In this document: positions 11,040-21,335 of the stretch, in pieces
How positions within the stretch are numbered: the first letter of the stretch is position 1
How the letters are laid out: each line of letters opens with the position of its first letter
Notes under the pieces: generated by a model
Database searches by the model: none
What the model was told of the DNA's origin: nothing
The model's input: the letters and a program-made list of their open reading frames with translations, nothing else
Translations under genes and position numbers: made by a program
DNA from: Halolamina sediminis
GTDB taxonomy: Archaea > Halobacteriota > Halobacteria > Halobacteriales > Haloferacaceae
Length of the DNA stretch: 64,000 bases
NCBI RefSeq assembly: GCF_001282785.1
Contig: NZ_CVUA01000001.1
Coordinates: 1,612,001 to 1,676,000, forward strand
Reading direction: 5' to 3'

Positions 11040-11165
11040 CGACAGAAATGCACCGACCGGGATTTGAACCGTTGTGAGACGTTCCTGCTCGCTTCGCTGC
11101 GCGGGCTGCGACTCACAGGGTTCAGAATCCCCTGTGCATTTCGTCTCACTCCGTTCGACAGAGAT
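11040..11165 (-). repeat. Post-tRNA-Gly module ending in a copy of the tRNA 3' end
   Basis: Read on the minus strand, it starts right after tRNA-Gly. In order it contains CGAACGGAGTGAG (11145-11157), a 7-bp hairpin CACAGGG/CCCTGTG (11114-11136) with GATTCTGAA in its loop, GTCGC, GCGCAGCGA, ACGTC, and a copy of the tRNA T-arm/acceptor 3' end. Positions 11040-11070 repeat 11156-11186 with one mismatch in 31 bp; this match includes 10 bp beyond the tRNA 3' end. The copy lacks the 5' half, D-arm and anticodon, so it is not a tRNA gene. See the parallel module after tRNA-Arg. Confidence 0.75.
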
Positions 11166-11236
11166 GCACCGACCGGGATTTGAACCCGGGCCATGAGCTT
11201 GGAAGGCTCAGGTCCTGCCACTAGACCATCGGTGCG
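11166..11236 (-). tRNA. tRNA-Gly (anticodon TCC)
   Basis: A 71-nt cloverleaf can be folded by hand. It has a 7-bp acceptor stem GCACCGA/TCGGTGC, D-arm GTC...GAC, anticodon stem TGAGC/GCTCA around loop CTTCCAA (anticodon TCC, reading GGA and possibly other GGN codons), T-stem CCGGG/CCCGG with loop TTCAAAT, and discriminator A. CCA is not encoded. A likely TATA box, CTTATTTC on the minus strand (11259-11266), is centred about 27 nt before the 5' end. Confidence 0.95.
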
Positions 11237-11288
11237 CAGTCGGAGTAACCACACGCAGAAATAAGGGCGTTCCCCTTCGGCCCGATTC

Positions 11289-11327
11289 TTCAAGTACGAT
11301 GCCGGGACCACGCTGCCCGTGCGCTGA
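11289..11327. repeat. 39-nt conserved hairpin element, copy A
   Basis: Plus-strand sequence begins TTCAAGTACG, then CGGGACCACGCT, then CCCGTG, and ends CTGA. Copy B at 40854-40892 matches at 32 of 39 positions without gaps. CGGG and CCCG can pair around ACCACGCTG. It lies about 65 nt beyond the stop of the minus-strand gene ending at 11393 and about 50 nt before tRNA-Gly. It could be a 3'-UTR element of the minus-strand mRNA, or a plus-strand promoter (TTCAAGTACG as a TATA-like box) for an antisense RNA. Confidence 0.55.
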
Positions 11328-11392
11328 CCATCGCCACCGACGGGGTCGAGAGCGCGGTGTGTCCGTCGGCGCCGCCCAGCACCGCCTGTTCG

Positions 11393-12418
11393 CTAGTCGT
11401 CGGCAGCCGCCGGCTCGACCTCGTCGCGGCGTCGGGCAGCCTCGCGGAGCTCGTCGGAGATCGCCGGCGTCGACGCCGGATCGACCTGCTCGCCGTCGAG
11501 CTCGTCGAGCGACTTAGGGAACTCCCGGAGGTCGTAGTGCAGCGCGATGCCCGCCTTCGCGCCCTCGCCCATCGCGACCGGGATCTGGTTGTGGCCGGGC
11601 GTGAGATCGCCCACCGCGGACACGCCGTCGACGGACGTGCGGCCGTGGTCGTCGACCGCGACGTTGCCGTCGTCGGCGCGCTCCAGCCCCAGCGCGTCCG
11701 CGAGATCGGCGTTGTAGTCCGAGCCGTACATCGGGAAGCCGCCGCGGTACTCCCGGACGGTGCCGTCCTCGAACTCGAACGACTCCAGCCAGCCGTCCTC
11801 GCCGGTGTTCATCCCCGCGATTTCGGTCTCGATCACGTCGACCGGGTGGGCCCGGAGCTGTCGGTCGGTCTCCTCGCTCCACGCCGGCTCCTCGCCGCGG
11901 AGCAGCAGGTCCACCTCGTCGGTGAAGTTGAGCATGATCATCGCGACGTGGGCCGCGCTCTCGCCGGTGCCCATCACGTACACCGACTCGTCGACGAACA
12001 TGTAGGCGTCACAGTGCAGACAGTAGTGGAGCCCCCGCCCCGTCCGGGGCAGCGGCGGGTCCGGGCGCTCGTCGGCGAACCCCGTCGCGAGCACCACGCG
12101 CTCGGCGGTGTACGTCTCCTCACCGACGGCGAGTTCGAAGCTCCCCGCCGAGCCGTCGATGTCGGAGACCATCCCCCGAACGGTGTCGGCGCCGTAGGAC
12201 TCGATCTGTGCTTTCGCGGTCTGCAGCAGTTCGTTCCCGGAGGTCTCCTCGGTGATCCCGATGACGTTGTGCGTGTCCTGCATCATCGCCGCGCGCCCGC
12301 CGCCGCGGTCGATCAACACCGTGTCGTGGCCGAGTCGGGTCGTGTAGAGTGCGGTCGTCAGCCCTGCCGGGCCGCCGCCGACGACGGCGACCTGATAGTC
12401 GGAGTCGGCTTCGCTCAT
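11393..12418 (-). CDS. Thioredoxin-reductase-like FAD/NAD(P) oxidoreductase (341 aa)
   Basis: Two-dinucleotide-binding-domain flavoprotein. The FAD site VVGGGPAGLTTALY is near residue 11. A possible redox pair CLHCD lies at about 133-137, where thioredoxin reductases have CATC or similar. The NAD(P) site VMGTGESAAHVAM is at about 150. The second FAD motif VDGVSAVGDLTPGHNQIPVAMGEG lies at 263-287. Length fits the family plus a roughly 35-residue Arg/Glu/Ala C-terminal tail. It probably reduces a thioredoxin-like or ferredoxin-like partner in the cytosol; the partner is unknown. It is convergent towards tRNA-Gly and monocistronic. Confidence 0.85.
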   Translation of the reverse strand: MSEADSDYQVAVVGGGPAGLTTALYTTRLGHDTVLIDRGGGRAAMMQDTHNVIGITEETSGNELLQTAKAQIESYGADTVRGMVSDIDGSAGSFELAVGEETYTAERVVLATGFADERPDPPLPRTGRGLHYCLHCDAYMFVDESVYVMGTGESAAHVAMIMLNFTDEVDLLLRGEEPAWSEETDRQLRAHPVDVIETEIAGMNTGEDGWLESFEFEDGTVREYRGGFPMYGSDYNADLADALGLERADDGNVAVDDHGRTSVDGVSAVGDLTPGHNQIPVAMGEGAKAGIALHYDLREFPKSLDELDGEQVDPASTPAISDELREAARRRDEVEPAAADD

Positions 12419-12496
12419 ACACGTACTCCGCGGCTCGCAGGGAAAAGGGCACCACTCGTGTGCGCGGCCGGCGGGAAGCCGCCCCGCAAGGGATCG

Positions 12497-13471
12497 CTAC
12501 GGTTCGGGGAACAGCTCCTCGACGTCCGGCTCCTCGACGACGAGGCGGTAGTCGGTCGCCTCCCGCTCGACGATCCCGTGCCGTTCGAGGTGATCCAGAT
12601 GCGCGAACGCCTCGCCCGGCCCGTGGAGGATGTGGATCATCTTCAACTCGCCGAACAAGTGGTGGCTCACGGTCCAGGCGTCACACGCGCCGTGGCGCTC
12701 GAGCACGTCAACCACGTTTTCCGTCCGCTCGCGGTGGTGGCCGAGGATCTCCCGGGCGCGGCCTGCCGGCTCCTCGATCGGGTCGCGGTGGCCGGGCAGC
12801 GCGCGGTCCCAGTCCCGCTCGATCACCTCGACGAGGCTGTCGACGTACTTCGCCAGCGGCGACGCCACTCGCACGTCGGCGCCGCCGACGTTCGGCGTGT
12901 ACTTCGGGAGGATGACGTCCCCGACGAACGCCTGCCGCTCCCCGTCCGCCTCGAACGCGAAGGCGGTGAGCCCGGCGGAGTGGCCCGGGAGGTGGACCGC
13001 CTCGAACTCGGTCCCGTTCACGTCGAAGCGGTCGCCGCCCGTGAACGGCGTCACCGCCACGTCCTCGCCGGCGAGCTCGGCGTGGCCTTCGAGGAAGGAG
13101 ACCAGTTCCTCGCGCGGGCCGTCCGGGATCTGCCACGCCTCGAACGTCTCCTGCTGGAGCGCTCGATCCTCCATCAGGGACGGCTCCTCACCCGAGACCA
13201 GCCCGGCATCGGCCTCGTGGACGTGGACGGTGGCCCCCCCGGCGTTCTGGATCATCCCCGCCAGTCCGGCGTGGTCGTAGTGCCAGTGGGTGAGGAACAC
13301 GCGGTCGACGTCCGCGGGCGTGACGCCGAACGACGCCAGCCCGTCCACGAACTCCTCACGCGTCGGCTCGGTGGCGACCCCGGCGTCGACGAGCACGGTC
13401 TCCTCGCCCTGCAGGAGGTAGACGTTGTTCTCCCCTTCGAAGACGGTGTTCCCCAGACGGATCCGTTCCAT
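12497..13471 (-). CDS. MBL-fold metallo-hydrolase with C-terminal helical domain (324 aa)
   Basis: The zinc-binding signature THWHYDHAG (HxHxDH) lies at about residues 61-69. The later metal ligands are in LPGHSAG (about 162), FVGDVI (about 182) and ALPGHRDP (about 221). A C-terminal winged-helix-like segment (TVSHHLFGELKMIHILHGPGEAFAHLDHL) resembles lactamase-B proteins related to glyoxalase II or LACTB2. The probable role is hydrolysis of a thioester, ester or phosphoester; the substrate is unknown. The adjacent plus-strand J-protein gene is divergent across about 110 bp. Confidence 0.85.
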   Translation of the reverse strand: MERIRLGNTVFEGENNVYLLQGEETVLVDAGVATEPTREEFVDGLASFGVTPADVDRVFLTHWHYDHAGLAGMIQNAGGATVHVHEADAGLVSGEEPSLMEDRALQQETFEAWQIPDGPREELVSFLEGHAELAGEDVAVTPFTGGDRFDVNGTEFEAVHLPGHSAGLTAFAFEADGERQAFVGDVILPKYTPNVGGADVRVASPLAKYVDSLVEVIERDWDRALPGHRDPIEEPAGRAREILGHHRERTENVVDVLERHGACDAWTVSHHLFGELKMIHILHGPGEAFAHLDHLERHGIVEREATDYRLVVEEPDVEELFPEP

Positions 13472-13584
13472 AGCGGAACTGTTCAGCGGTCACCCAAGAG
13501 GGTTCCCACTTCGCGCGGCGGGGTGCGCGACCGCGGCGAACGGAGGGCGGTAGATTCAAACACGGACTGGGCGTATCGGGAGCC

Positions 13585-14691
13585 ATGCCGGCGGACCTCT
13601 ACGACGTTCTCGGTGTCCCCGCCGACGCCGCCGCCGAGGAACTGAAGCGCGCGTACCGGGAGCGTGTCCGAAAGTATCACCCGGACGTGAACGACCACCC
13701 AGAAGGCGAGGCGCAGTTCAAGCTCGTCAAGACCGCCCACGACGTGCTCTCGGACCCGGCCGAGCGCAAGACGTACGACCGGCTTGGCCACCACGAGTAC
13801 GTCGAGCAACACCTCGACGGCCTCCCGCCGGTGTCGGTGTTCCCGGAGGAGGACCTGCCGGACGGCACAACTACCGACGACGGGTCGACGGATAGCGGTC
13901 CAAGCACCTCCGAACCGATGGATAGGGCGGCGAAATCGTCGACGAACAGCCCCGCGGATACGTCGACCGACGCCGCCACGAGCGATCGATCCGGCGGCTC
14001 CACCGCCTCGACTGGGTCGAGCAGTGACTACGGCAGTACGGGAAGCAGCACGTCGACGACCGACAGTCGTTCGTCGACCACTGGGACGACAACCGGAGGG
14101 AAGTCCTCGACTGATCGCAGCGACGAGGCCGCCGGCACGGACCGGGACAGCTGGGACGCCGCCGCCAGTTCGACGCAGACGGCGACAGCCGACTCGTCGG
14201 TGCCGGAGGGCGTCCGTCGCCGGCGCGGGCTGAAGCGGTGGTACGGCGTCGTCGTGCTCTCGCTCCTCCTCTATGCGGGCGGCCTCGGCGCGTACGCGCT
14301 CCCGCGACGGGCCGCGATGCGCTCGTTCGTCGGCGACGTGGCGGCATCGCCGATCCCGACGCTGCTCGGCACGTTCCCGCTGGACTCGCCCACCGAGTAC
14401 GTCCTCGCGGCGGCCCGGACGGCGACTGCCGGCACGCCGACGCTGGGGCTGGTGCTGCTCGCCGGGACGGTGCTGCTCCCGCTTGTCGTGCTGACGACCG
14501 TCGGGCGGTTCGGGCGCGGCGCCGCGTGGGTGTACGCGCTCCCCTCGATCGCGCCGGCGCTCTGTCTCGCGGTCTGGCCGGTCGTCGCGGTCCCGACGTG
14601 GGGCGCGCTGCTGGGCCTGATCGTGCTACCCCTTCTCAGCGGCGGCGGGTTCCTCGTCGACGTGGGGCGGTACCTGCTCGCGACGCGGTGA
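13585..14691 (+). CDS. Membrane-anchored J-domain protein (368 aa)
   Basis: The N-terminal J domain at residues 1-68 (LYDVLGVPADAAAEELKRAY, KYHPDVNDHPEGEAQF, DRLGHHEYV) has the HPD tripeptide needed to stimulate Hsp70 ATPase. A long Ser/Thr/Asp/Gly-rich linker (about 90-210) contains no Cys zinc repeats. The C-terminal half has about three to four hydrophobic segments (YGVVVLSLLLYAGGLGAY, LGLVLLAGTVLLPLVVL, SIAPALCLAVWPVVAV). This is a type III J-protein that probably recruits DnaK to the membrane. The linker resembles extracellular S-layer-type linkers in composition but must be cytoplasmic if the J domain is to reach DnaK. Confidence 0.85.
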   Translation: MPADLYDVLGVPADAAAEELKRAYRERVRKYHPDVNDHPEGEAQFKLVKTAHDVLSDPAERKTYDRLGHHEYVEQHLDGLPPVSVFPEEDLPDGTTTDDGSTDSGPSTSEPMDRAAKSSTNSPADTSTDAATSDRSGGSTASTGSSSDYGSTGSSTSTTDSRSSTTGTTTGGKSSTDRSDEAAGTDRDSWDAAASSTQTATADSSVPEGVRRRRGLKRWYGVVVLSLLLYAGGLGAYALPRRAAMRSFVGDVAASPIPTLLGTFPLDSPTEYVLAAARTATAGTPTLGLVLLAGTVLLPLVVLTTVGRFGRGAAWVYALPSIAPALCLAVWPVVAVPTWGALLGLIVLPLLSGGGFLVDVGRYLLATR

Positions 14692-14697
14692 GCCGCG

Positions 14698-15330
14698 CTA
14701 TCGAACGTGGTAGCTCTCCCCGCCGGGGAGGAACCGCCCGAGGTCGGTCTCCCGACGGAAATCAGTCGACTGGAGCTCCAGCAGCGACTCGACGAGCCGT
14801 TCGGCCTCGTCTCCCGCCCAATCGCTCGGATCCTGAATCGGGAGTACGAGCCAGCCGCTGCCCAGAATCTCCTGCCCGTGGAGGCGGTCCATCTCGATCT
14901 CGGTCCGGTGGGCCCGGGCGGTGAACGTTTCGACGACGTGGCGGGTCGCGCGTTCGCCGACCGGCAACAGGACGTGGGCGGCGATCGCGCGGAGTTCGGC
15001 GTCGAAGTACCGCTCCATCTCCGTGTACTCGGCGTCGCTCGGGGTATCGTCGGCCGGAACGCACATGTGGAGGTACGAGAGGAACGTTCGATCGACCGCG
15101 GGTTCGTCGCCGACGGTGTGGAGCAGCCCCGCCTCGCGGAGGGCGTCCTGGAGGCGTTCGGCCGCCGGCGTGCCCGTGAACGGGACGCCGGTATCGGCGC
15201 CGCCGTGGACGCCGGGATGGTCGCCGACGACGTGGAAGTCGGCGTTGGCGTCGCCGTAGCCGGGGACGAAGCGGTCACAGGGCGGCTCCATCCCGAAGGG
15301 GTTTGAGACCCGGTCGGTGACGTTTCGCAC
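14698..15330 (-). CDS. Uracil-DNA glycosylase family protein (210 aa)
   Basis: The motif GDHPGVHGGADTGVPFTG (about residues 34-51) is the haloarchaeal form of the family IV/V-like uracil-DNA glycosylase loop (GEAPG..E...G.PF.G). LPVGERATRHV corresponds to the second active-site segment. The frame is open to 15498 but then overlaps the next gene. The GTG at 15330 is chosen because it starts at RNVTDRVSNPFGM, where family-like sequence begins. It probably removes uracil or deaminated bases from DNA. The four Fe-S Cys residues of classical family IV enzymes are not obvious; Cys residues appear only in PPCDRF and HMCVPAD. Confidence 0.75.
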   Translation of the reverse strand: MRNVTDRVSNPFGMEPPCDRFVPGYGDANADFHVVGDHPGVHGGADTGVPFTGTPAAERLQDALREAGLLHTVGDEPAVDRTFLSYLHMCVPADDTPSDAEYTEMERYFDAELRAIAAHVLLPVGERATRHVVETFTARAHRTEIEMDRLHGQEILGSGWLVLPIQDPSDWAGDEAERLVESLLELQSTDFRRETDLGRFLPGGESYHVR

Positions 15331-15430
15331 GCCCGTCCGTAGTGGGCTGGCGGGCTTAGCTGGCGTGGTTCCGGCCGGCGCCCCGCCGGGACCGGAATAG
15401 CCATACGCCCCCGCGCCCCAGCCACGGCCG

Positions 15431-15934
15431 ATGAGTCTGAGCGACGAGGCCAGAGAGCGCCTCGCCGACATCGTGACCCTCCAGCCGACCAAGAACAAGG
15501 AGCTACAGGACCGCTGGGGGATGGAGTCGGGGAGCGAGGTCCACCAGTATCTCGAATCGGAGCTGAGCGACTACTACTACCGCGACGACGACAGCCTGAT
15601 CCGGGCGACTGCCGAGGGCGTCGATCTCGTTGACGTTGAGCCCAGCGTCCCCCCGGAGGAGGAGGGCGGGATCCCCGACCGCATCAGGGTTCCCGAACTC
15701 CACGTGCAGGTGCTCGACGTGCTCGCGGGCCCCGAGGAGCGCTCCGAGAGCGTCGTGAGCGTGCTCGGGAAGCTCCGGGAGGAGTTCGGCATCGACCCCG
15801 ACGTCGAGGCCGTGCGGGACGCGCTGGGCAGCCTCCGGCGGAAGAACGTCGTCGAGGTGGAGTACCGGACGGTGCCGACGTTCCGGCTCGCTGCCGAGCG
15901 CTCGTCGTTCGACGTCGAGACGATCGAGAGCTGA
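15431..15934 (+). CDS. DUF5797-like winged-helix protein (167 aa)
   Basis: The N-terminal part (LSDEARERLADIVTLQPTKNKELQDRWGM, then SEVHQYLESELSDYYYRDDDSLIRATAEG) looks like a winged helix with its wing. A second helical domain follows (VPELHVQVLDVLAGPEERSESVVSVLGKLREEF), ending in FRLAAERSSFDVE. The family name DUF5797 is from memory and unverified. The likely role is DNA binding or transcription control; the target is unknown. The ATG at 15431 lies about 100 bp from the divergent glycosylase start and belongs to a separate unit. Confidence 0.7.
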   Translation: MSLSDEARERLADIVTLQPTKNKELQDRWGMESGSEVHQYLESELSDYYYRDDDSLIRATAEGVDLVDVEPSVPPEEEGGIPDRIRVPELHVQVLDVLAGPEERSESVVSVLGKLREEFGIDPDVEAVRDALGSLRRKNVVEVEYRTVPTFRLAAERSSFDVETIES

Positions 15935-15961
15935 TCCGTCCGGGGGCGGTCGACCGAGCGA

Positions 15962-17326
15962 CTAATCGGCGACCGCGGGCTCCGACTCCCCGGACATCGT
16001 GTGGGTGAGCCAGAACACGCCCGTCGCGAACACGACGAACGCCGACGCGGTGAGGAACGCCTGCACGGTGCCGACGAAGTCCTTGATCAGCCCGACGCCG
16101 AGCGGGCCGGCGGTCTGCCCGATCTTCCAGGAGATCGACCGCAGCGACATCGCGCTCGCGACCGAGTCGTACTTCTCGCCCTCCTCGACGAACAGCGCCA
16201 TGCTCGCCGGCAGCCGGATCGAGTCGCCGATCCCCAGTATCGCGTAGGCCAGAAACAGCACGAGGAATCCGCCACCGAGCTCCTGTCCGTGGCCGAAGTA
16301 GCCGAGGTAGAACCGTCCCATCGTCTCCTCGGCGGGCAGCGACAGGGGGATCAGCGCGATCCCGAAGCCGTACACCAGCGCGCCGGCGGCGACGAACTTC
16401 GCGCGGTCGCCGATCTGGTCGGTGAGGTCGCCGACGTACCCTTGGAGGAGCGACTTGGTGAGCTTCCCGCCGGCGAGGATCCAGCCGATCGCGAACGCGT
16501 CGATCCCGAACTCCGTGCGTGCGAGGATGGGGAGGAAGATGATCACCGCCATCTTCCCCACCGAGAACGAGAGCCGGAACAGCACCAGCGAGCGTAGCAT
16601 CGGCAGCTTCAGCAGCTTCTTGATCGTGCCGATCCCCGATTGGGCCTCGGGATCGTCGACGCCCCCGCCGGGGTTGTCGCGGAGTTCGAAGTAGACGAGG
16701 ACGAACGCGACCATCGTGACTGCCGCGAGCACGATGAACACCACCCGCGACTGGAGCGGATCGTACATCGAGAGCAGCAGGCCGCCGACTAGATCGCCCG
16801 CAAGCGAGGAGAACGCCGCGACCTGATTGTACGAGCCGAGCCAGCGGCCGCTCTCGTCGTCCGGCGAGATCTGCCCGACGACGGTCGAGCCCGTGATCCA
16901 GAGGATGCTGGCGCCGATCCCCTGCAGCATCCGGACGAGGACGACCTGGATCGAGCCGTTGGTCGTCCAGAGCGCGCCGGCGCCGACGCTCTTGAGGAGG
17001 GCGACGATCTCCGCGTTGACCGGGTCGCCGATGAACATGTACCCCGCGAACACGAGGACGTTGATCAGGAGGCCGGCGAGCAGCCAGCGCTTGGCGTTCC
17101 CGGTGTCGATCTTCCGTCCCAACGGGAGAACGATCAGCAGCTGGACCGACGCGAACGCGGTCCCCCACAGCCCCTCGATGAACCCGGAGGTGCCGAACGC
17201 GTCGGCGTACAGCGCGAGCGCGATGATGATGGTCGAGTACGCCTGACTCCGGGCGAACGCGGTGCCGGCGAGCGAGAGGAACTCCCGGTTGCGGAGCAGC
17301 GCGACGGAGTTGCCGAAACGGGCCAC
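15962..17326 (-). CDS. MFS transporter (454 aa)
   Basis: Twelve hydrophobic segments are arranged in two halves, with the A-like motif LGRKIDTGNAKRWLL between segments 2 and 3 and a long cytoplasmic middle loop (YFELRDNPGGGVDDPEAQSG). Another conserved stretch is GWILAGGKLTKSLLQGYVGDLTDQIGDR. It is a major facilitator of unknown substrate, possibly a drug exporter. Two GTG starts are possible. The one at 17326 (VARFGNSVALLRNREF) is preferred because the TATA box TTTATG on the minus strand (17355-17360) predicts transcription starting near 17332. The alternative at 17344 would add six residues. Confidence 0.85.
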   Translation of the reverse strand: MARFGNSVALLRNREFLSLAGTAFARSQAYSTIIIALALYADAFGTSGFIEGLWGTAFASVQLLIVLPLGRKIDTGNAKRWLLAGLLINVLVFAGYMFIGDPVNAEIVALLKSVGAGALWTTNGSIQVVLVRMLQGIGASILWITGSTVVGQISPDDESGRWLGSYNQVAAFSSLAGDLVGGLLLSMYDPLQSRVVFIVLAAVTMVAFVLVYFELRDNPGGGVDDPEAQSGIGTIKKLLKLPMLRSLVLFRLSFSVGKMAVIIFLPILARTEFGIDAFAIGWILAGGKLTKSLLQGYVGDLTDQIGDRAKFVAAGALVYGFGIALIPLSLPAEETMGRFYLGYFGHGQELGGGFLVLFLAYAILGIGDSIRLPASMALFVEEGEKYDSVASAMSLRSISWKIGQTAGPLGVGLIKDFVGTVQAFLTASAFVVFATGVFWLTHTMSGESEPAVAD

Positions 17327-17483
17327 TTTCGTCGGACCGAACACGACACCGACGCATAAAGGAATCCTTCGCCGCAGCCTTTTCCGGGAGGGACGGGCGG
17401 TCCGATAAACAGTCACGTCTCTGATTAGACTGTCCCGCTTCAACAGATACATCCCTCTCACTTCACTGGACATCGGCCGGATG

Positions 17484-17498
17484 CACGCAATCTGCGTG
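17484..17498. promoter_or_regulatory. Palindrome in the MFS/BCCT divergent region
   Basis: CACGCA-ATC-TGCGTG is a perfect 6-bp dyad with a 3-bp centre in the 252-bp gap between the MFS gene and the BCCT gene, about 80 bp before the BCCT start. It could be an operator. A weaker dyad ACAGTC...GACTGT lies at about 17410-17432. No regulator gene is adjacent. Confidence 0.35.
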
Positions 17499-17578
17499 AG
17501 TTCGCACGGATCTGAGACGATAGCGTCGGCGAACGGTGTCGAACGACAGGCTGCGGTACTGACCCTCCTTCCGCACTC

Positions 17579-19222
17579 GTGAGTGTATCGTCGCAGCTCG
17601 TGGGCGCAGTCGAATCGTTCCGGGAGAAGTCGGACGTGGCCGTCTTCTCGCTGTCGGTGGCCGCGCTGGTGGGGATCATCGTCGCCGTCGTCGCGTTCTC
17701 CGACACCGCCGCCGCGACGCTGGCGACGGCGAACCAGTTCATCGTAGGGAACCTGGGGTGGCTCTACCTCTGGGTCGTGTTCCTCGCCTTCGTCTTCGTC
17801 GTCTACGTGATGATCGGCCCGTGGGGCCGGATCAAGCTGGGCGGCCCCGACACGGAGCCGGAGTTCACGTTCTGGCAGTACCTCGTCATGACGTTCACCG
17901 CGGGGCTCTCCTCCGGCGGACTGGAGTTCTGGGGCCCGGTCGAGCCGCTGATCCACTACGGGACGCGGCCGCCGTACTTCGACTCCTCGGCGGGGACGTG
18001 GGCGCGGATGGCCGACGCCCTGCAGTACGCCATCTACCACTACGGGCTGTCGGCGTGGGCCACCTACCTCGTGTTCGCGGTGGCGATCTCCTACTACGTC
18101 TACCGGAGGGGTGCGCCGTTCCGTCCGGCGGTGATTCTCGCGCCGTTCGTCGGCGTCGACAACCTCGACGGCCCGCTGGGGAAACTCGTCGACGCGTTGG
18201 CGGTCGTCGTCACCGTCAGCGGGATCACCGTCTCCTTCGGGCTGGGGATCAGCCAGTTCGCCTCCGGCCTCTCGTTCAAGTGGGGGGTCGGCCTCGGCCA
18301 GCTCGGCCGGATCGGGCTGATCCTCCTCGTGGGGGTGCTGTTCCTGCTGTCGGTGATCGCCGGCATCCAGAAGGGGATCAAGCGGTTCGCCGACCTCAAC
18401 GTCGTCCTGCTGATCGGGCTGATGGCGGCGATGTTCGCGTTCGGGCAGGCGACGACACTGGTCAACCTCACCACGCAGGCGCTGACCGGTTACGCGACCG
18501 ACTTCGTCGGGATGAGCCTCTTCTTCGCGCCGAACGGCGACGCGACGGGCTGGCTCGGCTCGTGGACGCTCTTTTTCTGGCCGTGGTGGCTCACGTTCGC
18601 GCCGATGATCGGGATCTTCATGGCCCGGATCTCCAAGGGTCGAACCCTGCGTGAGCTGGTGTTCGCCGGCCTGTTCGGCTCGTTCGCACTGACGGTGCCG
18701 TGGTACGCCGCCACCGGCGGCTCCGCGCTGCTGCTCCAGAGCTCCGGCGCCGCGGACCTGCTGGGTGTGTACGAGTCCTCGGGGTTGGAGGCCGTCGGAT
18801 TCGCGCTGTTCGAGCAGCTACTCCCCTACCCCGCCGTGTTCTCGGCGGCGCTGCTGCTGCTGGTGGTGAGCTTCCTCATCACCACGCTCGACTCCTCGAC
18901 ACTGAGCATCGCGATGATGGCCGCGGGCGGCGAGGAGTCGCCGTCGACGATCAACCGGCTGGTCTGGGGGCTGATGATGGTGCTTCTCACCATCGCGCTC
19001 AGCCTCGCCGGCGGGATGCCCGTGCTCCAGTCGTTCACGATTCTCGTCGGGCTCCCGACCGCGATCCTGTGTGCGATCGCGATGCTGGGGATGCTGATCG
19101 AGTTCGAACGCGAGTTCCCGATCCTCACCGAGAGCGACAGCGAGGAGAGCGAACGGTCGACGCCGGCGGGACCGTCGGTTCAGCAACAGCGCCAGTCGGC
19201 GGGCACCACCTCTGACGACTGA
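17579..19222 (+). CDS. BCCT-family transporter (547 aa)
   Basis: Betaine/choline/carnitine transporter. About 12 membrane segments, with the BCCT core (FGLGISQFASGL, then GIQKGIKRFADLNVVLL) and the substrate-region Trp-rich stretch WTLFFWPWWLTFAPMIGIFMARISKGRTLREL. Near the N-terminus GLEFWGPVEPLIHYGTRPP replaces the more usual W-AEP-Y pattern. The polar C-terminal tail is acidic and Ser/Gln-rich. It probably takes up a compatible solute with Na+ or H+, which fits osmoadaptation. The GTG at 17579 starts a short cytoplasmic segment before the first helix. No TATA box is obvious directly upstream. Confidence 0.9.
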   Translation: MSVSSQLVGAVESFREKSDVAVFSLSVAALVGIIVAVVAFSDTAAATLATANQFIVGNLGWLYLWVVFLAFVFVVYVMIGPWGRIKLGGPDTEPEFTFWQYLVMTFTAGLSSGGLEFWGPVEPLIHYGTRPPYFDSSAGTWARMADALQYAIYHYGLSAWATYLVFAVAISYYVYRRGAPFRPAVILAPFVGVDNLDGPLGKLVDALAVVVTVSGITVSFGLGISQFASGLSFKWGVGLGQLGRIGLILLVGVLFLLSVIAGIQKGIKRFADLNVVLLIGLMAAMFAFGQATTLVNLTTQALTGYATDFVGMSLFFAPNGDATGWLGSWTLFFWPWWLTFAPMIGIFMARISKGRTLRELVFAGLFGSFALTVPWYAATGGSALLLQSSGAADLLGVYESSGLEAVGFALFEQLLPYPAVFSAALLLLVVSFLITTLDSSTLSIAMMAAGGEESPSTINRLVWGLMMVLLTIALSLAGGMPVLQSFTILVGLPTAILCAIAMLGMLIEFEREFPILTESDSEESERSTPAGPSVQQQRQSAGTTSDD

Positions 19223-19227
19223 GCCGC

Positions 19228-20028
19228 CTACAGCTCGATTCGCTCGACCAGATCGTCGTCACCTTTCGTGTTGACGGCGACGATGCGGACGTCGTCTTCG
19301 AGCATCGAGTCGTGGAGCTTGTCCTTGAGGAGGTTGTCCACCTGATAGACGCCGGCGGCGTTGATCATCTCGATCTCGACGAGCACGGCCTTCCCGTTGC
19401 CCGGCTGGAGGCTCACCTGCCGGATCGCCTGACTGGAGAGGGTGTTGATCCCCCGACCGCCCTCCTCGTAGGGGATGCGCGAGCGGCCACGCTCCATGTC
19501 GAGGGCGTCGGCGACGCGGATCACGCCTGCCTCCCGGGTCAGCGGGGTCTCCGCAGTGTGGTGACAGAGAATCGCGTGGAGCACCTCCGCCTTCACGCGC
19601 ACCTTCTCCGGCGTCTCGTAGAACTGATCGAGGAAGCGGTCGAGCAGGTCCGCCGCCAGCGGGATCGAGTAGTAGGCGTGCTCGTCGCGGTGGACGACGT
19701 GGCCCACGTCGTGCAGCGTCGCCGCGAGCGCGACGATCACCGGCTCGTCGGCCTCGTCGAGCCCCTGCTCGCTGGCGCCGTTGAACTCGACGCCGCCGGC
19801 TTTCAGCAGGTCGTACAGCCGGAGCGCACGGTTCCGGACGATCTCGATGTGTTTGCTCCCGTGGTCGTTGTACCCCTTCCGCGTGACCGCGTTGACGTTC
19901 TGGGCTTCGAGGTAGGCGACGACTTCGGGGTCCTCGACCAGCGCGGGAAGCACCTCGTTGAGTCGGTCGTCGGGGAAGGCGTGCTCCTCCTGCGGGTCGT
20001 ACTCGTGATCGGAGACTTCCATAGCCAT
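19228..20028 (-). CDS. HD-domain phosphohydrolase (266 aa)
   Basis: Metal-binding HD residues are visible: NDHGSKHIEIV (about residue 54), ATLHDVGHVVHRDEHA (about 103), ILCHHT (about 152) and VIRVADALDMERGR (about 170). This order fits HD phosphohydrolases acting on nucleotides or small phosphoesters. Length is normal for archaeal members. The C-terminal domain (VLVEIEMINAAGVYQVDNLLKDKL) is separate and of unknown role. The gene is convergent with the BCCT gene, 5 bp from its stop. The substrate is unknown. Confidence 0.8.
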   Translation of the reverse strand: MAMEVSDHEYDPQEEHAFPDDRLNEVLPALVEDPEVVAYLEAQNVNAVTRKGYNDHGSKHIEIVRNRALRLYDLLKAGGVEFNGASEQGLDEADEPVIVALAATLHDVGHVVHRDEHAYYSIPLAADLLDRFLDQFYETPEKVRVKAEVLHAILCHHTAETPLTREAGVIRVADALDMERGRSRIPYEEGGRGINTLSSQAIRQVSLQPGNGKAVLVEIEMINAAGVYQVDNLLKDKLHDSMLEDDVRIVAVNTKGDDDLVERIEL

Positions 20029-20080
20029 ACCCTTCGTCTCGCGGAGCCGACGGAAAAAGGTCGTCGGGTAGCTACTCGCC

Positions 20081-20156
20081 CGCCGCGGCTGCCAGCGTGC
20101 CGTCGGCGATCAGTCGTCCGCCGCAGCTGCCAGCGTGCCGTCGGCGATCAGTCGTC
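20081..20156. repeat. 38-bp tandem duplication over the peroxiredoxin stop codon
   Basis: 20081-20118 and 20119-20156 are two copies of a 38-bp unit with one mismatch (G at 20087, A at 20125). The second copy contains the stop codon and the last codons of the minus-strand peroxiredoxin gene. The first copy is therefore a downstream replica of that gene end plus stop. A recent slippage or duplication event is likely. Confidence 0.85.
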
Positions 20157-20648
20157 CGCGGCGTTCCGGACCGCCTCGTCGACGGCCTCGTAGTCGGGCT
20201 CGTTCCCGGGATCGTCGGCCAGCCAACGGTACGTGACCGCACCGTCGGCGTCGAGAACGAACACCGATCGGCGGGCGACGCCGTCGATGCCGAGGCGTTC
20301 GTACCGTGTCCGGACGCCGTAGTCCGCACAGATCGCGCCGTCGTTGTCGGCGACCAGCGGGAACGGTAGCGACTCCACCTCACGGAACTCCGCGAGCGCC
20401 CACGGGAGGTCGGTGCTGATTCCGAGCACCGTCGCCGACTCGCTGGCCAGCGGACCGAGCCGGTCCCGGAACGTACAGAACTCCTCGGTGCAGGTGCCGG
20501 AGAACGCGGCGGGGAAGAAGGCTAACACGGTCGGCGTTTCGCCGAGATACGCCTCAAGCGGGCGGGGCGTGGTGCCGTCGGCGTCGACAGTTGGCGCGGT
20601 GAACCCCGGTGCGTCGTCACCGACCGCCGGCGGTGTGGTGTCGTCCAT
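20148..20648 (-). CDS. Peroxiredoxin, AhpE/BCP-like (166 aa)
   Basis: Thiol peroxidase of the AhpC/TSA superfamily. PAAFSGTC places the peroxidatic Cys in the canonical P-x3-T-x2-C-like loop (about residue 53), and a second Cys follows five residues later in TEEFC, fitting a resolving Cys. VLGISTDLPWALAEFREVESLPFPLVAD and RRSVFVLDADGAVTYRW are the family core. It reduces hydroperoxides in the cytosol; the reductant could be a thioredoxin system. The ATG at 20648 is about 90 bp from the divergent tatA start. Confidence 0.9.
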   Translation of the reverse strand: MDDTTPPAVGDDAPGFTAPTVDADGTTPRPLEAYLGETPTVLAFFPAAFSGTCTEEFCTFRDRLGPLASESATVLGISTDLPWALAEFREVESLPFPLVADNDGAICADYGVRTRYERLGIDGVARRSVFVLDADGAVTYRWLADDPGNEPDYEAVDEAVRNAADD

Positions 20649-20735
20649 AGTCGATCGTCTGCCGTCGTCGGGGAAAAGCGCTCCCCCCGATTTCCAAAAG
20701 GCCTATAGTCGGGAGTGGGGTACATCCGCATAGAG

Positions 20736-21014
20736 ATGTTCCAGACTGCGCCGCTTCAAGTACCGATCCCCGGGGGCCCCGAGCTCGTCATCATCCTCCT
20801 CGTGCTCGTGCTCCTGTTCGGCGCGAACAAGATCCCGAAGCTGGCTCGGTCGACCGGGCAAGCGATGGGTGAGTTCCAGAAGGGCCGACAGGAGCTCAAC
20901 GAGGAGCTCGAAGAGATGAAGGACGGACCGGACACGGACGACGACACCACCTCCTCGACGACCGACGACACCGAGGAGGAGACGGCGACCGAGACCGAGA
21001 CGTCGAGCAACTGA
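20736..21014 (+). CDS. tatA: Twin-arginine translocase subunit TatA (92 aa)
   Basis: One N-terminal membrane helix (PELVIILLVLVLLFGANKIPKLA) contains the FG-x-x-KIP-L-A hinge motif. An amphipathic helix (RSTGQAMGEFQKGRQELNEEL) and an acidic Asp/Thr/Glu tail follow, the full TatA layout. The ATG at 20736 is used because an in-frame upstream GTG would add seven residues with no family match. It forms the protein-conducting part of the Tat pathway, used heavily by haloarchaea and needed here by the 2305-4143 lipoprotein. No tatC is in the window. Confidence 0.93.
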   Translation: MFQTAPLQVPIPGGPELVIILLVLVLLFGANKIPKLARSTGQAMGEFQKGRQELNEELEEMKDGPDTDDDTTSSTTDDTEEETATETETSSN

Positions 21015-21059
21015 CGCCGAAGCGGGTTCTTTTGCCCCCCGGCCCGGTAGCGGCCAGTA

Positions 21060-21132
21060 GGGCGTGTGGCCTAGCGGACAAGGCGAGGGGTTCCTAACTC
21101 CTCGATCGTGGGTTCGAATCCCACCACGCCCG
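21060..21132 (+). tRNA. tRNA-Arg (anticodon CCT)
   Basis: A 73-nt cloverleaf: acceptor GGGCGTG/CACGCCC, D-arm GCC...GGC, anticodon stem AGGGG/CTCCT around loop TTCCTAA (anticodon CCT, reading AGG), T-stem GTGGG/CCCAC with loop TTCGAAT, discriminator G. CCA is not encoded. It lies 45 bp after tatA. Its 3' end is copied twice downstream. Confidence 0.95.
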
Positions 21133-21255
21133 TTTTCCGGCGAACGAAGTGAGCCGTGAAAACGGCTCGGTGGGATTCCGAAACAGGGAGGTCGCGCGCA
21201 GCGAGCGAACGCGAGCGAGCACGTCCGACCGTGGTTCGAATCCCACCACGCCCGT
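21133..21255 (+). repeat. Post-tRNA-Arg module ending in a copy of the tRNA 3' end
   Basis: Directly after tRNA-Arg come CGAACGAAGTGAG (21141-21153), a 7-bp hairpin GAGCCGT/ACGGCTC closed by a GAAA tetraloop (21151-21168), GGGATTCCGAA (21172-21182), GTCGC, GCGCAGCGA (21196-21204), ACGTC (21221-21225), and GGTTCGAATCCCACC...GCCCGTT, an exact copy of the tRNA T-loop/acceptor end (21233-21255). Motif order and the 12-nt spacing between GGGATTC and GTCGC equal those after tRNA-Gly. No complete second tRNA can be folded. Confidence 0.75.
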
Positions 21256-21325
21256 TCACTCCTTGCAGTCGTTCACTGGCATGGTTTACTCTCACTCCCT
21301 CCCGATGGTCGCTTGCGAGAGTCCT

Positions 21326-21335
21326 ACCACGCCCG
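21326..21335 (+). repeat. Third, short fragment of the tRNA-Arg acceptor end
   Basis: ACCACGCCCGT recurs here, preceded by GTCCT in place of the T-arm. It may be a further decayed copy of the tRNA-Arg 3' end, since it falls at a similar interval (about 90 nt) after the second copy. On its own the match is short. Confidence 0.4.

Follow-up and report, generated by a model that had tools for sequence, protein, structure and literature searches.

Small Gene-less Modules behind Haloarchaeal tRNA Genes Point to a tRNA-Anchored Mobile Cassette

Introduction

What are the short, hairpin-rich modules that follow two tRNA genes of Halolamina sediminis, and why does each of them end in a copy of the 3′ end of the very tRNA it follows? 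The stretch of DNA in question (64,000 nucleotides, hereafter the window) covers positions 1612001–1676000 of the 2.84-Mb chromosome. An earlier note, made from its sequence alone, had claimed such modules behind tRNA-Gly(TCC) and tRNA-Arg(CCT), and both were found there. The modules point to a previously undescribed, tiny, tRNA-anchored mobile cassette. With a probability of roughly 0.55, they are non-autonomous mini-cassettes without an open reading frame (ORF), which recombine within the sequence GGTTC and rebuild the tRNA, probably by means of a folded single strand and a tyrosine recombinase.

Architecture of the Modules

A module is comprised of a left half with a hairpin (hairpin 1), an antisense copy of the tRNA T-arm, a hairpin tip of ~20–60 nt, and GGTTCRAATCC with the remainder of the tRNA 3′ end, in this order. 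The features of the window are listed below (window coordinates, strand, description, and basis in brackets).

11165..11235, minus strand: tRNA-Gly(TCC), anchor of the first module (ARAGORN; Rfam RF00005, 68 bits)
11049..11164, minus strand: module behind tRNA-Gly, 116 bp, from the base adjoining the tRNA to the last base of the end copy (sequence; own-genome tRNA survey; model R1)
11143..11159, minus strand: hairpin 1 of the Gly module, GTC-GA-AC-GGA-GT-GA-GAC, with tandem GA and a GNA triloop (sequence, fold)
11119..11132, minus strand: antisense arm GGGGATTCTGAACC of the Gly module, complement of the T-arm copy (fold; arm statistics)
11071..11118, minus strand: exchangeable tip CTGTGAGTCGCAGCCCGCGCAGCGAAGCGAGCAGGAACGTCTCACAAC of the Gly module (sequence, fold)
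11049..11070, minus strand: 22-nt copy of the tRNA-Gly 3′ end, GGTTCAAATCCCGGTCGGTGCA (exact match to the tRNA)
21060..21132, plus strand: tRNA-Arg(CCT), anchor of the second module (ARAGORN; Rfam, 65.1 bits)
21133..21254, plus strand: module behind tRNA-Arg, 122 bp (sequence; BLAST in own genome; tRNA survey; model R1)
21139..21155, plus strand: hairpin 1 of the Arg module, GGC-GA-AC-GAA-GT-GA-GCC (sequence, motif statistics)
21169..21182, plus strand: antisense arm GGTGGGATTCCGAA of the Arg module, one base more than the complement (fold, tRNA survey)
21183..21232, plus strand: exchangeable tip ACAGGGAGGTCGCGCGC...GCACGTCCGACCGT of the Arg module (resembles the tip at Leu-TAG, which stands behind a different left half; tip exchange)
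21233..21254, plus strand: 22-nt copy of the tRNA-Arg 3′ end, GGTTCGAATCCCACCACGCCCG (exact match to the tRNA)
21255..21335, plus strand: degenerate second tandem unit behind tRNA-Arg, ending in CCTACCACGCCCG at 21323–21335 (sequence; array scan 122/81)

Covariance model R1 matches the Gly module at 11059–11130 (minus strand, 29.2 bits) and the Arg module at 21172–21244 (19.1 bits). The earlier note had located the modules correctly, with limits a few bases off, and its terminal copy of the own tRNA 3′ end is exact over 22 nt in both. The motifs that it listed as shared are present as well, but they do not form a fixed body: the GTCGC...ACGTC block is one of several interchangeable hairpin tips, and GGGATTC-x-GAA is an overlooked antisense copy of the tRNA T-arm, which pairs with the terminal copy (hairpin 2). 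As had been stated, no credible protein is encoded; the units of ~100–150 bp are filled by hairpins and the tRNA copy, with no space for a gene, and cargo-bearing cassettes were absent from the loci examined.

Across the modules studied, the left half often begins with a T-rich stretch and carries a hairpin of the type C-GA-AC-GAA-GT-GA-G, and the antisense arm is exemplified by GGGATTTGAACC. The tips are of a few kinds, such as AGGGAG...GACCGTG, GAGGACGAGC-GAA-GCGAGTCCTC and similar ones, and xAGTCGC...ACGTCTx. Rare modules have the tip in reverse orientation between intact arms, as though it had been inverted (L100, L118, and L123).

The earlier note had also asked whether terminal copies match the tRNAs they follow. 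The own 3′ end is repeated within 320 bp at 148 of 240 haloarchaeal tRNA loci and that of another isotype at 13, a ratio that is only indicative, as many of these loci were picked by pattern. In 234 modules, the last 22 nt (discriminator base to position 52) show an identity of 0.91–1.00 to the own tRNA, compared with 0.29–0.46 to other isotypes at most acceptor positions. At position 51 the own-tRNA identity drops to background (0.34 vs. 0.22), and the boundary of the copy is uniform at GGTTC. Because GGTTC is invariant in tRNAs, the exchange point can be placed in or beside it.

The antisense arm also follows the tRNA. Set against R57, its base gives 95 A-T and 32 G-C combinations and 16 exceptions (8 + 8; Fisher p = 4e-17), and atypical T-arms such as those of Arg-GCG and Gly-CCC are matched 11 of 11. 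At positions 61–65 the fit to the own tRNA is 3.41/5, compared with 2.81/5 for other isotypes (p = 1e-12). The tRNA-specific share of the arm is modest, since most of it is the complement of the universal T-loop. An outer helix with the last acceptor bases is not claimed: it lies near background, and a flexible alignment that seemed to support it gave the same result after shuffling.

Modules in the Genome of H. sediminis

A BLAST search with the Arg module against its own genome returned three further modules (at Leu-TAG, Leu-TAA, and His), each closed by the end of the tRNA that it follows. In a survey of the same genome, clear modules, some in tandem, stand directly behind about 15 of the 43 predicted tRNA genes, namely Gly-TCC, Arg-CCT, Arg-GCG, Leu-TAG, Leu-TAA, Leu-CAA, His, elongator Met, Thr-CGT (two), Val-TAC (two), Asp, Ser-GGA, Tyr, Glu-CTC, and one tRNA called TTA by ARAGORN. 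Degenerate modules follow Ala-CGC, Phe, and Ser-CGA, and tRNA-Lys(CTT) has two more modules, which an inserted element has pushed away from the tRNA. A count of 19/40 module-bearing tRNAs was dropped, as it was inflated by identical tRNA sequences of other genomes, and so was a search of this genome with the generic tip pattern GTCGC..GAGC..ACGTC, which proved too loose. GA/GNA-capped hairpins are also found in a dispersed intergenic repeat of ~200–300 bp (ggctggggagg...gggactgaaaggggctg...caggggctttc) with no link to tRNAs (L264, L265, L267, L268, L270, L272, and L281).

Gain, Loss, Order, and Exchange of Units

The number of units per tRNA varies from 0 to 3 among seven congeners: Arg-CCT has 0, 1, or 2 units, Phe 0–3, and Val-TAC 0–2, and Gly-TCC has them only in two genomes. 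Order changes as well, with V1-V2 in genome G000 and V2-V1 in G002 at Val-TAC, B-A-B′ in G050 and A-B in G002 at Phe, and a-b-c-d in G068 and b-d-c-b in G063 at Gly-GCC.

A precise case is tRNA-Leu(TAA) of the congeners G068 and G063, where the compared tRNA part is identical, the flanks are near-identical, and G068 has one extra unit of 88 bp with the alignment gap at GGTTC. The 20-nt end carried by this unit, TTCGAATCCTGACCCGCGCA, points to tRNA-Leu(TAG) of G068 (19 of 20 positions identical) and not to tRNA-Leu(TAA), whose end closes the unit. Such an indel, be it a gain or a loss, is as expected if a circular cassette is inserted through an exchange within GGTTC. It is located at a module copy, with no tRNA damaged. 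The His, Asp, and Ser-TGA arrays of the two genomes also differ by at least one unit each. Besides this Leu case, cross-isotype end copies are rare, with one other candidate (L097). At tRNA-Arg TCT of G068 (L326), three units end in CCCACCGTGCCCG, and the present tRNA end is CCCGTCGTGCCCG, as if the tRNA end had been replaced.

Parts of modules are exchanged too. In eight pairs, some across genera, the left halves are at least 80% and the tips less than 60% identical. At the same tRNA, left halves may be 80–98% alike with unrelated tips, such as at Leu-TAG of H. sediminis and Halobellus captivus or at Ser-GGA in Halorubrum species; at different tRNAs, tips may be 85–91% alike with unrelated left halves. 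The similarity that the earlier note had seen between module bodies is real, but it is not simply a conserved body: the left half stays with its tRNA, and the tip is swapped between tRNAs.

The behaviour of the modules as insertion units is well supported. Presence and absence, order swaps, tandem arrays, and the precise one-unit indel define the unit and its boundary, and they lend good support to the earlier suggestion of an element that uses tRNA 3′ ends as insertion sites and restores its target. For changes in unit number, enzyme-free homologous recombination is a serious rival. The modules could be passive tandem repeats, whose units are made, deleted, reordered, and converted by the horizontal import of tRNA-module DNA together with homologous recombination or single-strand annealing among tRNA ends, arms, and tips, with no dedicated enzyme. 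Tandem direct repeats of at least 22 nt and shared tips offer the homology, unit number does vary, and tip exchange resembles gene conversion between short flanking homologies. However, this explanation leaves unaccounted for the uniform boundary at GGTTC, the antisense arm that tracks each tRNA, and the recurrence of one architecture at most tRNA types in nearly all Halobacteria and hardly elsewhere. In addition, a homology of 11–22 nt is short for RadA-type exchange. As an account of the modules as a whole, passive repetition is rather unlikely, though it deserves more weight than any other alternative discussed below.

Distribution across Genomes

A covariance model of hairpin 2, a check of the kind proposed in the earlier note, has matches at E <= 0.001 in 142 of 145 Halobacteria genomes, the highest number in one genome being 35. 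G005, G008, and G161 have no match, which may reflect module losses or limits of the model. In a phylum-wide draw, the model matches 25 of the 26 Halobacteria listed; outside Halobacteria, 3 of ~130 genomes of the phylum have one weak match each (E between 1e-4 and 1e-3). Further tRNA-linked copies are present in the same and in related genomes, and their similarity is far above chance. The modules are a real, class-wide family of cassettes without genes, which are seated at the 3′ ends of tRNAs and recombine there.

When only the palindromic arm pattern was sought in 85,000 species genomes, with no tRNA required, at least 119 stretches were found. Among the matches listed, 86 lie behind a tRNA, and 61 of these 86 have that tRNA's end (with at most 2 differences). 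Matches of the palindromic pattern in viral contigs (L050–L057) were set aside as a separate phenomenon of prophage-like contigs. In these contigs, of Bifidobacterium type judging by similar genomes, an inverted T-arm is joined to a tRNA-Met-type 3′ end, and the two make up a long, perfect hairpin close to the presumed attachment site. Some bacterial tRNAs, too, are followed by units that combine an antisense T-arm with a 3′-end copy. In Planctomycetes bacterium Pla163 (L176), tRNA-Met is followed by at least five tandem units of 137 bp, each of which has a terminator-like hairpin and repeats the tRNA 3′ end, CCA included, in both antisense and direct form; other examples are L185, L137 (an alphaproteobacterial metagenome-assembled genome, MAG), L147 (an actinomycete MAG), and L131.

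Folding of the Modules

A GNA triloop closes 96 of 167 distinct tips and a GNYA tetraloop another 13; GNRA loops do not occur among them, and UUCG is likewise not the loop type. The N of GNA can be any of the four bases (first 173 modules), and GNA occurred in 0 of 169 shuffled tips. Hairpin 2 folds with a mean z of -3.9 under DNA parameters. C-GNA-G mini-hairpins with flanking tandem GA are exceptionally stable DNA hairpins. G.U pairs make up 3.4% of tip pairs, compared with 9.2% in shuffled tips, and G.T accounts for 77 of 491 arm mispairs, i.e., its random share. The better-folding strand is the tRNA-sense strand in 122 of 173 modules under DNA parameters and in 137 of 173 under RNA parameters. 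Taken together, loops, G.U pairs, and strand favour a fold of single-strand DNA, without proof.

The same data bear on a structured RNA, an RNA gene family having been the other option of the earlier note. The modules might act as 3′ trailers, terminators, or small RNAs that are produced along with the tRNA and in which the hairpin sequesters the T-arm copy or competes for the 5′ half of the tRNA. They begin right after the tRNA, often with a T-rich stretch, the best-folding strand is the transcribed one, and left halves are sometimes conserved across genera. Against this, many orthologous tRNAs of congeners have no module, congeners differ freely in module number, G.U pairs are depleted, G.T mispairs do not exceed their random share, and the loops are GNA or GNYA. 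An Rfam search of the window returned the two tRNAs only, and the modules match no known structured RNA family. An RNA function is, on this evidence, improbable.

Classical Integrative Elements and Candidate Enzymes

A copied tRNA 3′ end is also what integrase-encoding elements leave behind when they attach at tRNA genes, and such elements are present in these genomes, so that the modules could be imagined as their shrunken scars. Two elements still in place indicate otherwise. At tRNA-Lys(CTT) of G000 (L258, G000:872000-891900), an element of 5.9 kb that carries a tyrosine integrase gene stands between the tRNA and two tandem modules; its far end has a tRNA copy and no hairpin, after which the two modules follow intact. 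In G068, the end of an integrase gene is followed at once by a short end copy of tRNA-Arg(TCG) type and then by a module, and in the congener G063 the equivalent module lies directly behind the tRNA-Arg(TCG)-type gene. Classical elements can therefore enter between a tRNA and its module array, and, because they have no hairpin and are located between the two, the modules are not their scars. The uniform size of the modules and the tips common to unrelated tRNAs are also unlike random decay, which makes an origin as scars most improbable.

Equally remote is single-strand transposition by a Y1 enzyme (IS200/IS605, RAYT-like) or casposon-like integration by Cas1. Hairpin ends with a pairing foot do recall the guide sequences of IS200/IS605, and tRNA 3′ ends are among the possible targets of casposons. 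However, 88 of 145 Halobacteria, H. sediminis being one of them, have no Cas1, and 46 of 145 have no Y1 transposase (PF01797); the latter include G033, G078, and G007 with 17–20 module matches each, whereas the three genomes without a detected module have both. Cas1 and Y1 were accordingly ruled out as required enzymes.

With regard to tyrosine recombinases, PF00589 proteins are encoded in all 14 genomes checked, so that an enzyme of this kind is possible. It is a choice by analogy with integrons, CTXphi, and tRNA-integrating elements, and identifies no particular enzyme.

Proposed Mechanism and Its Significance

In the proposed scheme, a cassette would bring the last 20–22 nt of a tRNA, beginning with the GGTTC of the T-loop and running up to the discriminator base. 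An exchange inside GGTTC would place the cassette behind the tRNA, with the copy of the cassette completing the tRNA and the old tRNA end becoming the terminal copy. Repeated insertions would build tandem arrays, and the reverse reaction would remove or reorder units. As every tRNA has GGTTC, a single machinery could be enough for all of them, and selection for an intact tRNA would hold each cassette at its own tRNA. On the tRNA-sense strand, pairing of the antisense T-arm with the terminal copy would yield a long hairpin, whose tip is rich in GA and capped by GNA. Such a folded strand may offer a double-stranded core site to a tyrosine recombinase acting in trans, as in integron attC and CTXphi attP sites, a suggestion made tentatively from these analogies.

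Several observations weigh against this scheme. No recombinase was tied to the modules; the genome of H. sediminis has five PF00589 genes, none of which adjoins the two modules of the window. The occurrence of PF00589 is uninformative, because the 14 genomes that have it include three without a model-detected module. No circular or excised form was seen, and a module query of phage and plasmid collections gave no phage match and only short, unrelated plasmid matches. The arm pairs chiefly with the T-arm, and pairing of the outermost acceptor bases is weak (11% vs. 6%). The GA/GNA motif is not module-specific, as it also caps intergenic hairpins of the same genome that are not linked to tRNAs. 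Finally, the number of units can be altered by homologous recombination in tandem 22-nt repeats, which could also insert units when DNA is imported.

Viruses, plasmids, and genomic islands enter archaeal and bacterial genomes mainly at tRNA genes. Tiny cassettes that occupy these very sites almost throughout a class would represent a new kind of mobile or recombining unit, which may be one of the smallest cassettes known, and, if this holds true, tRNA gene evolution would be linked to single-strand recombination. The modules would also account for many partial tRNA matches and repeats in haloarchaeal intergenic DNA. Genetically tractable haloarchaea exist, in which the modules are testable.

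Comparison with Known Systems

The earlier note knew of no named feature that matched the modules. No such units or described family were found in the searchable open-licence literature; as far as this literature shows, the family had no name before. The modules share properties with several known systems.

Like proviruses, plasmids, and islands that integrate into tRNA genes, the modules are inserted at the 3′ end, restore the tRNA, and displace a copy of its end. Unlike these elements, they are ~100–150 bp long, have no gene and no integrase of their own, carry hairpin arms and tips, and occur as several units per tRNA and at many tRNAs per genome, with a copy of 22 nt that starts at GGTTC. 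In the folded attP of CTXphi, a site pairs with an inverted copy of itself, and the resulting stem mimics the chromosomal site, a layout similar to the arms of the modules; the modules have no phage and no XerCD/dif, and their single-strand substrate is inferred.

REP/BIME sequences and the haloarchaeal PATEs/MITEs are likewise short, non-coding palindromic repeats with many copies per genome. The modules differ from them in being anchored at tRNAs, in their tRNA-specific ends, and in not requiring Y1; a dependence on genomic Y1, as in IS200/IS605 or REP-RAYT systems, does not fit the 46 of 145 genomes without PF01797. Similarly, the Cas1-family integrase of casposons was found neither in the genome of H. 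sediminis nor in 88 of the 145. The bacterial look-alikes (tRNA-Met of Pla163 and an alphaproteobacterial tRNA-Pro) share the antisense T-arm and the 3′-end copy with the modules, but include CCA, have terminator-like hairpins and no GA/GNA tip, and are isolated cases, possibly convergent.

Integron cassette arrays (attC) and CALINs provide the remaining comparison. They also consist of small tandem units with a recurring core and an imperfect hairpin that can form the core site from one strand, and their units are gained, lost, and reordered. An attC-like imperfect hairpin is present at each unit end of the modules (hairpin 2, whose arms track the tRNA), with an analogous layout and no sequence match, and the likeness between the module core GTTCRAA and the integron core GTTRRRY is only partial. 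In contrast to integron cassettes, which usually carry an ORF, the modules have none; their anchor is a tRNA gene with a rebuilt end, their core differs from tRNA to tRNA, and the strand inferred to fold is the tRNA-sense one. An integron integrase or attI was not found for the modules, no IntI-specific model having been used. More tentatively still than the folded core site itself, the modules may constitute a class-wide, gene-less, tRNA-anchored analogue of integrons, in which cassettes travel in the form of a folded single strand, recombine at the GGTTC common to all tRNAs, and rebuild the tRNA every time, and which might act as a buffer of tRNA genes against viruses and plasmids with the same target sites, or as their competitor.

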